A stretch of DNA of 47,682 nt, taken from the NCBI GenBank assembly GCA_945877805.1, contig CAMCSM010000009.1, positions 1 to 47,682 on the forward strand, read 5' to 3'. This DNA comes from Methylacidiphilum caldifontis (GTDB lineage: Bacteria > Verrucomicrobiota > Verrucomicrobiia > Methylacidiphilales > CAMAQI01). Both the position numbers and the translations under genes were made by a program. Numbering within the stretch: position 1 is the first letter of the stretch; the number at the start of each line of letters is the position of its first letter. The notes beneath the pieces are model-generated. The model was given only the letters and a program-made list of their open reading frames with translations, searched no databases and had not been told where the DNA came from. Below, in pieces: positions 1-40,500 of the stretch.

Positions 1-46
1 AACACGATTCGTTAGATTACCCCTCCATTGACTCCCCCCGATCCCC

Positions 47-169
47 AGCGCATTTCGAATCCTAAAGGATTCGATGCGCTCCCCTATGCATTCAATCCAT
101 CCCTCTAGGGATGGGGACTTCCGAAAACTTTAGTTTTCGGAATTGCTGACCCCGCAAGCGACCGCTTGC
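47..169. repeat. Cluster of four consecutive different hairpins (47-80, 97-114, 119-142, 154-169)
   Basis: AGCGCATttCGAATCC-TAAA-GGATTCGATGCGCT; CCATCCCT-CT-AGGGATGG; TTCCGAAAAC-TTTA-GTTTTCGGAA; GCAAGCG-AC-CGCTTGC. Confidence 0.9.
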
Positions 170-3950: not shown

Positions 3951-4831
3951 AGCGAGTCGCTTTAGCAATTTTAAATTTCGAAGGAGTCGCGCATCTGGAG
4001 ATTCTTTTGCCGACAGCTTTGGAGGCGGTACGAATTTATGGCGATCCATGCCCGATCCTCGTTTTGGATAATCAAAGTCAAACAGGGGATAAGGAATGGG
4101 TAAGGACTCATTTCCCGACGGTTGAGGTGATTATTGCCTCTAAGAACGACTATTTATTTTCTTACAACGAACTTTTACAATCAAGAGAAGAGGAGATCGT
4201 TATATTATTAAATAATGATTTAAGATTAGCTCCTGATTTTATCCCTCCGTTGGTGAAGCATTTTGAGCGCCCCGATGTTTTTGCGACGACCTCCCTCTCC
4301 TACGACTGGGAGGGGAAGAGCGTGACCTCTGGGCCGGCCTCTTTTCGGATTCATCATGGATGGTTTTATACGGAGTTCGATTTAAGTTGTTCCGTGGCGA
4401 CCCCGACCTTATTTCCGACAGGGGGCTATGCGGCCGTCGATCGAAAAAAGTTTTTGGAGCTCGGGGGATTTGATCGGCTTTATTATCCGGCCTATGGCGA
4501 GGATTTAGATTTGGGGTATCGAGCGCAACAGCGGGGATGGGTCACGATTTATGAGCCGGAAAGTAAAGTTTGGCATCGGGAAAACGGATCGATGACAAGT
4601 AAAAGGGCGGTGCATCTGATTTTGGTTTCGCAGTTTCTTTTTCAATGGAAAAACTTGCGGAGTTTTTCGATTCGATGGAGGCGCTCGATTTACATTCAAT
4701 GGCTCCGCTATTGCGGTTGGAGAAAAGGGGAGGGGGCCTTTGAGAAAGCGTATCAGGAAGCAAAAGAGAAATTTAAACCGAGTATCGTGTGCCTAGAAAA
4801 GAAGATTAACCACAATGATGAAAAATCTTAA
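3947..4831 (+). CDS. Glycosyltransferase family 2
   Basis: VLDNQS..., LLNNDLRL, GGYAAVDRKKFLELGGFDRLYYPAYGEDLDLGYR; start taken at the ATGA overlap with the PAP2 gene instead of the track start 3905. Confidence 0.88.
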   Translation: MKRVALAILNFEGVAHLEILLPTALEAVRIYGDPCPILVLDNQSQTGDKEWVRTHFPTVEVIIASKNDYLFSYNELLQSREEEIVILLNNDLRLAPDFIPPLVKHFERPDVFATTSLSYDWEGKSVTSGPASFRIHHGWFYTEFDLSCSVATPTLFPTGGYAAVDRKKFLELGGFDRLYYPAYGEDLDLGYRAQQRGWVTIYEPESKVWHRENGSMTSKRAVHLILVSQFLFQWKNLRSFSIRWRRSIYIQWLRYCGWRKGEGAFEKAYQEAKEKFKPSIVCLEKKINHNDEKS

Positions 4832-4916
4832 ACCACAAAAGGTTCGTGAAACGAACAAGTTAGATCACCGGAGGTGCTCGTAATTTTAGTGCAGTGGTAG
4901 ATGGGGGTACAAATCT
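4822..4916. repeat. ~95-bp direct repeat, copy 1
   Basis: AAAATCTTAAACCACAAAAGGTTCGTGAAACGAACAAGTTAGATCACCGGAGGTGCTCGTAATTTTAG...GGTAGATGGGGGTACAAATCT; near-identical to 6004-6097. Confidence 0.95.
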
Positions 4917-5130
4917 TCACTGATTAACGCTTATAAACCTAAAAACGGCAATCCGTTTAACCACGGATGGAGGAGTTTATGAAAATGAACCTCTGTTTTT
5001 TCCTTCACCCACAAGATGAAGGCTGATTTTTTCCTAAACCGTTGAAAATCCGTGTGATCCGCGTTATCCGTGGTTCCAACTGCTTTTTCTAGGATAAAAC
5101 AAATTTGAATTTTATCAGCGAAAATCAGCG

Positions 5131-5181
5131 ATACAACGAATCAAACCCTATTTTCTTAACGCAATCCTCTCACTTTTTTAA
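5131..5181. repeat. 51-bp repeat, copy 1 (second copy at 12455-12505)
   Basis: ATACAACGAATCAA....TTTTCTTAACGCAATCCTCTCACTTTTTTAA. Confidence 0.93.
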
Positions 5182-5238
5182 AATAAAGTCCGTTTTTAGC
5201 TCTTTGAGTTCTTTATGGCTAAATTAGTTGCTTGATCA

Positions 5239-5628
5239 TTACCAAATTGTTTTCACCGCATACTGAGCGATCAAACGATCAGGGGTGATCAACGGCTGAT
5301 CCAAAATTTGAGCGGTGGCCACAATCATTCGATCGGCAGGATCTTTATGATGCCACGGAAGAGTTTCGGAGCGATGTGCAATTTCCCGCGTGATCGATTG
5401 ACACTGAATCGAAAAATCCTCCATCACCGCCTCCAACCAAGGCTCCAGATCCCGTTCCTTCATTTGAAACTCCAAACGTCCCGCCCTTAAAAGCCGGTGA
5501 ATCTCGATCACCGTCATCGCACTGATCCAAAGATCTGAGGTCGACTCCAGCACTTTCATTGCCTTCGGCGAGATCGATTCTCTCTGACTCGTCAGCCAGA
5601 TGAGCGTGCAAGTATCCAAAACCGCCAT
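5239..5628 (-). CDS. PIN-domain toxin (VapC-like), module A
   Basis: MAVLDTCTLIWL...HKDPADRMIVATAQ; start adjusted to the TAATG junction with the antitoxin. Confidence 0.88.
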   Translation of the reverse strand: MAVLDTCTLIWLTSQRESISPKAMKVLESTSDLWISAMTVIEIHRLLRAGRLEFQMKERDLEPWLEAVMEDFSIQCQSITREIAHRSETLPWHHKDPADRMIVATAQILDQPLITPDRLIAQYAVKTIW

Positions 5629-5882
5629 TACCATCCCTCCCACACACTCGCAGGAAGCGGCTCTACCAGCTTTGAAACACTGACTTTCGATTTCAACTTT
5701 CCGTAATACTTTCGAGATTTAAATTTCTGAAGCCGTTCCTCAAATGGGCGGTTCTGAATCTGCGTTAATTTCAATAACACCTCTCCTTTTGCCCCGCGTC
5801 GAATCAACACGCTCTCCCCACGCATCGCCTCGCGGACTAACTTCGAAAAATGAGTTTTCGCTTCATGTATGGTGTACGTCAT
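5628..5882 (-). CDS. Phd/YefM-type antitoxin, module A
   Basis: MTYTIHEAKTHFSKLVREAMRGESVLIRRGAKGEVLLKL; start adjusted from track start 6020; 1-nt overlap with the toxin. Confidence 0.85.
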   Translation of the reverse strand: MTYTIHEAKTHFSKLVREAMRGESVLIRRGAKGEVLLKLTQIQNRPFEERLQKFKSRKYYGKLKSKVSVSKLVEPLPASVWEGW

Positions 5883-5942
5883 AATATTAGTCCACCTTAG
5901 TCTATTTTTACGATAAGTCAATTTTCCAACCATCTCTATCCT

Positions 5943-5975
5943 GTGGGAGAGCTCCCTCAAGTCGTCAAGGAGGGA
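5943..5975 (-). promoter_or_regulatory. Shared TA-upstream element E, copy A
   Basis: Gene strand CTTGACGACTTGAGGGAGCTCTCCCAC; similar to copies upstream of modules B and C. Confidence 0.6.
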
Positions 5976-6003
5976 ACAAAAAGAACGGTCCACCCCCATG
6001 AGG

Positions 6004-6097
6004 AAAATCTTAAACCACAAAAGGTTCGTGAAACGAACACGTTAGATCACCGGAGGTGCTCGTAATTTTAGTGTAGGGTAGATGGGGGTACAAATCT
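6004..6097. repeat. ~95-bp direct repeat, copy 2
   Basis: About two substitutions and a 1-nt indel relative to 4822-4916; contains GTTCGT-GAA-ACGAAC and CACC-GGA-GGTG hairpins. Confidence 0.95.
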
Positions 6098-7240: not shown

Positions 7241-7259
7241 GGATTCGCATCCTGCTGAA

Positions 7260-7291
7260 GTGGGAGACTCTCGATAAATCGTCAAGGGGGA
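7260..7291 (-). promoter_or_regulatory. Shared TA-upstream element E, copy B
   Basis: Gene strand CTTGACGATTTATCGAGAGTCTCCCAC. Confidence 0.6.
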
Positions 7292-7942: not shown

Positions 7943-7987
7943 ATCTTCAACTCTTTTCGGACTTTGCGAGACAACCATCCCTCTCCC

Positions 7988-8020
7988 GTGGGAGACTCTC
8001 AACGAGTCGTCAAGAGAAGG
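7988..8020 (-). promoter_or_regulatory. Shared TA-upstream element E, copy C
   Basis: Gene strand CTTGACGACTCGTTGAGAGTCTCCCAC. Confidence 0.6.
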
Positions 8021-40236: not shown

Positions 40237-40394
40237 TGACTTACTTGGTTGGGAGAGATAAGAAATTAGCCGCAAAAGAACGCATAGATCGCAAAAATAA
40301 AGACTCACCATAGTCTAGTCCATCATCCTAAATTCGGCAGTTGAAGTCACATTTACCTCTCCATTAGCCTTCACCCAAAGGGTGAGTCCTATTT

Positions 40395-40494
40395 GGAGGG
40401 GCACCGGCCCTGTGCCTCGGGCTACGGGGACGGCAGCCCCGACCTGTCGGGGCTGCCTTCCCCGTCCGATGAGGCACAGAGCCTGTGCCCCTCC
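40395..40494. repeat. 100-bp nested palindromic element
   Basis: GGAGGGGCAC...GGCAGCCCCGAC-CT-GTCGGGGCTGCC...GTGCCCCTCC, with 12-bp perfect inner arms. Confidence 0.95.
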
Positions 40495-40500
40495 ATTTTT

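Follow-up and report, generated by a model that had tools for sequence, protein, structure and literature searches.

The window, a 47,682-nt stretch of DNA from a Methylacidiphilum caldifontis contig, carries two near-identical direct repeats of 95 bp at positions 4822 to 4916 and 6004 to 6097. The copies are spaced 1,182 nt apart and were confirmed by alignment to differ by two substitutions and one 1-nt indel; both contain GTTAGAT. Eighteen nucleotides of the shared core were found twice in the window, against 0.01 occurrences expected by chance, and the copies remain weakly similar a short way beyond each end of the 95 bp (about 4818 to 4922). As stated in the original prediction, the repeats bracket a toxin-antitoxin pair. 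A PIN-domain (VapC-like) toxin gene (5239 to 5643; Pfam PF01850, E = 9e-15) and a Phd/YefM-type antitoxin gene (5628 to 5879; Pfam PF02604, E = 1.5e-4, 21.9 bits, below the curated cut-off) lie between the copies on the minus strand, antisense to the flanking repeats, and a larger fold-back (MITE-like) repeat occupies positions 4936 to 5093 on the plus strand. Another repeat, of about 39 bp (CATCC..GTGGGAGA..TC..GTCGTCAAG), is found just upstream of each of the window's three PIN toxin-antitoxin operons (5931 to 5969, 7248 to 7286, and 7976 to 8014) and has hardly any further match genome-wide. Window positions 1 to 148 recur without any difference at the end of contig C123 (reverse), as a shared repeat or an assembly branch point; adjacency of contigs C9 and C123 through this 148-bp overlap was rejected, since both start outward from the same shared sequence.

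Each repeat contains three hairpins in a fixed order, H1 (loop RAA), H2 (loop GGA), and H3 (G-rich loop), and the element ends with CAAAT or CAACT. The two stems named in the original prediction, H1 and H2, were present in both copies, and a third, GTGC..GTAC, had been overlooked. In copy 1, on the plus strand, H1 pairs 4843 to 4847 with 4851 to 4855 around a GAA loop, H2 (CACC-GGA-GGTG) spans 4866 to 4876, and H3 pairs 4889 to 4892 with 4907 to 4910. The alignment columns place the corresponding plus-strand hairpins of copy 2 between 6025 and 6091 (H1, 6025 to 6029 with 6033 to 6037; H2, 6048 to 6051 with 6055 to 6058; H3, 6071 to 6074 with 6088 to 6091). The covariance model R1, for which 16 copies were used, matched the 85-nt core of copy 1 at 4830 to 4914 (100.7 bits, E = 2.2e-23) and copy 2 at 6012 to 6095 (89.9 bits, E = 1.2e-20), both on the plus strand.

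All three hairpins are backed by compensatory changes. In H1 the outer pair varies as TA, AT, or CG and the inner pair as TA or GC (GTTCG/CGAAC, GATCG/CGATA, and GCTCG/CGAGA). H2 occurs as CACC/GGTG, CACT/AGTG, and CGCT/AGCG, and H3 as GTGC/GCAC, GTAC/GTAC, and GCTC/GAGC. Two-sided changes were seen at 6 of 13 pairs among 16 diverse copies and at 12 of 13 pairs among 102 distinct copies. In the 102-copy alignment, which was fitted to the model and so leans towards the model structure, there were 275 compensatory cells compared with 80 in shuffles, and the covariation score was 0.512 compared with 0.083 or less for slid structures.

The genome that holds the window (G000; a 2.94-Mb draft in 169 contigs, 96% complete) contains 70 to 80 well-supported copies of this element of about 85 nt, mostly single and without toxin genes. 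BLAST gave 40 matches of the repeat on many contigs, and model R1 gave 106 matches at E of 1 or less, as well as 16 and 34 matches in two genomes of the same genus. The number of independent insertions is far smaller than the number of copies, because many subfamilies always lie in the same MITE. For a genome with about 80 copies, chance alone predicts roughly 1.3 same-strand pairs no more than 1.2 kb apart, and the 18 PIN genes of the genome lie close to an element only in the window, the next nearest being about 2.1 kb away on contig C123. For these reasons the pair does not speak for a toxin-antitoxin cassette. The proposal that the repeats are recombination sites able to excise the module is thus unsupported: matched genome-wide, the 95-mer is dispersed singly, the outcome that the original prediction had itself named as contrary to the proposal. 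Its other suggestion, a recent duplication or insertion, was right in kind, as the repeats are two copies of a dispersed mobile element. The pair may include a local duplication; copy 2 resembles copy 1 more than it does any other copy, so that the pair probably arose through a local copy event.

Larger MITE-like repeats enclose many of the copies, and a given repeat can be found both with and without the insert. The fold-back repeat at 4936 to 5093 is itself without a three-hairpin insert, and other genomic copies of it carry one in one arm or the other. In the first case the empty AACCAC-GGAT-AACAC (GGCAATCCATTTAACCAC-GGAT-AACACAGAT) corresponds to the filled AACCAC-[AAAAGG..GCACAA]-AT-AACACAGAT (AT-AACAC), and the GGAT-site motif of the opposite arm is filled in other copies. 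A second empty site, CGGGGAA-GGCAGC (CGGACGGGGAA-GGCAGCCCC), corresponds to CGGGGAA-[element]-GCAGC, that is, CGGACGGGGAA-[AAGG..GTACAACT]-GCAGCCCC, and a third, TTAGGAA-TGCAGG (TCTTAGGAA-TGCAGG), to TCTTAGGAA-[AAGG..GTACAACT]-TTGCAGG. In these comparisons there was no target duplication, and 0 to 2 nt were lost. The element resembles MITEs (non-autonomous DDE elements) in being small, gene-free, and present in many copies, but unlike them it has neither terminal inverted repeats nor, from the empty and filled sites, a target duplication.

Elements also nest in each other. One subfamily (GGAAAACCATTCG...) is found in the H3 loop of other copies and in tandem. Nesting goes in both directions in this genome: at L110 (602 to 845) an element copy is split by a palindromic MITE with CCCATTTCTTGCATT ends. 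No autonomous parent, with element halves around an ORF, was found among the partial matches, the L110 case being a MITE in an element. A near-perfect palindrome with 50-bp arms (TGGAGGGGCAC..GTGCCCCTCCA) lies in the window at 40394 to 40495 and is elsewhere in the genome the target of one element subfamily.

Comparison with two related genomes, G001 and G002, revealed differences at matching sites. An intergenic site (L106/L155) carries an element in G000 and none in G002, and at another (L108/L222) the G000 element lies within a larger insertion, with 36 bp in G002 compared with 454. Different subfamilies occupy the same intergenic place at L021/L125 and at L003/L071, both of the latter behind an mnmG-like gene. 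At the place in G002 opposite L050 (L150), there is a putative H3-like stretch. For the window pair, both G001 and G002 diverge at about position 4777 and lack the whole block beyond the upstream gene, so there is no clean single-element empty site.

The elements tend to lie in sense, just 3′ of genes. In G000 the upstream gene was on the same strand as the element 35:11 among 46 cases (P = 5e-4), and the bias recurred in G001 and G002 combined (17:6 of 23, P = 0.035); this test was exploratory and unplanned, with simple ORF calls and copies that are not all independent. The downstream gene showed no orientation bias relative to the element.

Distant relatives were found in two other families of the order, directly behind Leu, Pro, or Ser tRNA genes. 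In a genus of one such family (g3), weak R1 matches lie directly behind these three kinds of tRNA gene, often in tandem, and have H2, the linker, and H3 in common with the dispersed element. H3 pairing is kept in this distant genus (GCGC/GCGC, GGCC/GGCC, GGTC/GACC, and GTGC/GCAC). In three g3 loci, L190 (44 to 494), L214 (1344 to 1629), and L213 (2454 to 2733), three to four elements stand in tandem, together with repeated tRNA tails, behind or near tRNA genes. A complete genome of the third family (G008) has one relative behind tRNA-Ser, and G000 itself has one copy behind tRNA-Gly. At 15 of 15 tRNA loci, covering eight anticodon types, the 3′ end of that tRNA recurs in direct orientation after the element, as a repeat 8 to 21 nt long that begins in the T-loop. 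At the Pro loci and one Ser locus, the nucleotides preceding H2 are complementary to the acceptor strand to a greater extent than chance would give; at the Leu loci the complementarity is suggestive only (P of about 0.1). IS110/IS1111 elements have a DEDD transposase and a guide RNA with loops complementary to target and donor; in the present element, complementarity to the target was seen only behind tRNAs. The dispersed copies, which have no target site duplication, and the tRNA copies, which have direct repeats, are linked by the H2-linker-H3 structure that they share and not by a shared insertion chemistry.

The element appears to be confined to the order. No convincing copies were found outside it among 388 genomes across the phylum with a second model (R2), in which H3 was shifted by one column and which leaned on sequence over H3 pairing, so that remote copies could have escaped it. 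No element copy came from the phage, plasmid, viral, or other bacterial collections. Candidate matches from a pattern scan of the whole collection, both the bacterial ones outside 'Methylacidiphilum sp. Phi' and the viral ones, were rejected as coding-sequence coincidences by covariance model and by eye. Rfam gave no match to the element at the gathering score, and at relaxed thresholds it gave tRNAs and two weak matches to eukaryotic families, below the gathering score and outside the element. No description of the element was found in the literature searched.

These results indicate a new, gene-free, dispersed family of three-hairpin elements. What the data show is a high copy number, a structure conserved by covariation, clean insertion, presence or absence at matching sites, replacement of one subfamily by another, an excess of sense orientation behind genes, and, at tRNA genes, relatives flanked by direct repeats of the tRNA end. 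Each of the two repeats is in our view likely to be a short, non-autonomous mobile element that inserts at gene 3′ ends or in hairpin repeats, with the toxin-antitoxin pair probably incidental cargo. An enzyme supplied in trans would recognize the folded single strand, whether an RNA copy or the single-stranded DNA of a fork or transcription bubble, and would join it to DNA, either where a transcription unit has its 3′ end or within a hairpin-forming repeat. Copies would also be carried along in larger MITE-like repeats and nest in each other.

The arrangement at tRNA genes brings up a different origin, as mini integrative elements that enter tRNA 3′ ends by means of a tyrosine recombinase, possibly XerC/D or the integrase of a mobile element in trans, with the dispersed copies as secondary-site insertions. 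The T-loop-to-3′-end repeats that flank 15 elements and the tandem arrays behind tRNAs fit this scheme, as does the presence of Xer-like recombinases in nearly all genomes examined; in lean genomes the tyrosine recombinases are mainly XerC/D-like. However, the dispersed copies are without tRNA-type direct repeats, the units are only about 95 to 150 bp, and no dedicated integrase lies near any element: the Phage_integrase loci scanned had none, apart from one chance-level match (E = 0.95). No integrase was found at all in G049, a genome that is 71% complete. We consider this origin unlikely. Casposons, too, enter tRNA genes at the 3′ end and are flanked by direct repeats, but the Methanosarcina mazei casposon has terminal inverted repeats, coding capacity, and a 14-bp target site duplication that includes no more of the tRNA than its last 4 bp (PMC6977970), whereas the repeat described here starts in the T-loop and the element has no terminal inverted repeats and no genes.

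The sense position behind genes, the covariation, and, at Pro and Ser tRNAs, the complementarity to the acceptor strand could also be read as signs of an element that is mainly an RNA at transcript 3′ ends, with a role in stability, termination, or tRNA-tail processing, and that spread by ordinary duplication and hitch-hiking. Selection on RNA would give an excess of G.U over A.C, but the G.T and A.C wobbles stand at 37:26; with the two so similar, there is no strand preference, and RNA and single-stranded DNA are not told apart. The fold energy of one copy was likewise ordinary (z = -1.6), and nesting in H3 loops together with the differences between species at the same site points to insertion. 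An RNA role as the main explanation is accordingly hard to credit.

Direct repeats around a toxin-antitoxin pair and elements in sense behind genes would be expected of integron-like recombination sites, in which one element together with a gene or a toxin pair forms a cassette excisable as a circle. One further locus keeps this idea alive for the wider family: in G008 (L208, 14462 to 15680), behind tRNA-Ser, a second element lies 1 kb on from the first, and a DUF4272 gene of lower GC content stands between the two identical 55-bp cores, the sole cassette-like case found. Against it, nearly all copies are single, the pair spacing fits chance, and the toxin-antitoxin genes are antisense to the elements. 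No integrase lies near the elements, and G022, which has elements, holds just two Phage_integrase genes, both with XerC/XerD-like scores. G001 and G002 have nothing of the block past the upstream gene, and thus showed no single-element empty site. Like integron attC sites, the element is a structured, single-strand-like site behind genes. Unlike attC, which folds into one long imperfect hairpin, it has separate short hairpins and no GTTRRRY core (the GTTRRRY/RYYYAAC boxes do not pair), it has no linked IntI-type integrase, and it is dispersed with CAAAT/CAACT ends. Excision of this kind is very improbable as an account of the repeat pair.

Elements of the IS200/IS605 group are recognized as hairpins in single-stranded DNA, make no target site duplication, and can be mobilized in trans. 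Y1 transposases occur in G000, G001, G002, and several g3 genomes, and none is present in the complete G008, where the element copies may be fossils. The Y1 genes read have ends of their own (GGGGTCAG), and no element was found within flanks of about 1.5 kb at 16 Y1 loci in G000 to G002 and g3. Two RAYT-like Y1 transposase genes, at L073 (400 to 1450) and L076 (900 to 1920), have inverted GGGGTCAGTCCA ends unrelated to the three-hairpin element. Like REPINs, the elements are high-copy, extragenic, and hairpin-forming, show compensatory changes and some tandem clusters, and have no gene of their own (PMC3116915); unlike REPINs, they have three unlike hairpins in direct order in place of two inverted REPs, their ends are not complementary, they do not lie beside a RAYT gene, and they have relatives at tRNA ends. 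With PATEs and the ends of IS200/IS605 they share hairpins near the ends and clean insertion without target duplication, but they have three hairpins and no linked TnpA, and no constant flanking tetranucleotide was found. A REPIN or an IS200/IS605-derived (PATE-like) element moved by a Y1 (HUH) transposase, which hairpin recognition, the lack of duplication, and mobilization in trans would suit (PMC3116915), is therefore the least probable reading, as the element is not an inverted doublet, the Y1 genes have their own ends and no element nearby, and G008 has no Y1 transposase. A retro-mechanism was rejected as well, with RVT_1 reverse transcriptases absent from most host genomes (none in G000, the complete G008, or ten g3 genomes).

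A more far-reaching reading is conceivable, although we hold it to be doubtful: a new kind of structure-recognized element, confined to the order, whose insertions go in sense to the 3′ ends of transcription units. In tRNA genes it would copy or recombine the segment from T-loop to end and carry a stretch complementary to it, so that arrays, and now and then cargo genes, accumulate behind tRNAs. Its enzyme would be unlike any known integrase, Y1 transposase, reverse transcriptase, or DDE transposase, or would be a co-opted housekeeping Xer pair.

As a practical caution, direct repeats around a toxin-antitoxin pair need not mean excision sites. Many bacterial genomes are shaped by small structured repeats whose movers are for the most part inferred. 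What the present family brings to this picture is threefold: covariation supports its three-hairpin fold, it lies preferentially in sense behind genes, and it has relatives tied to tRNA 3′ ends with direct repeats of the tRNA tail. If one enzyme unites the hairpin fold, the sense bias, and the tRNA-end relatives, it would represent a new way of inserting DNA at transcript ends.
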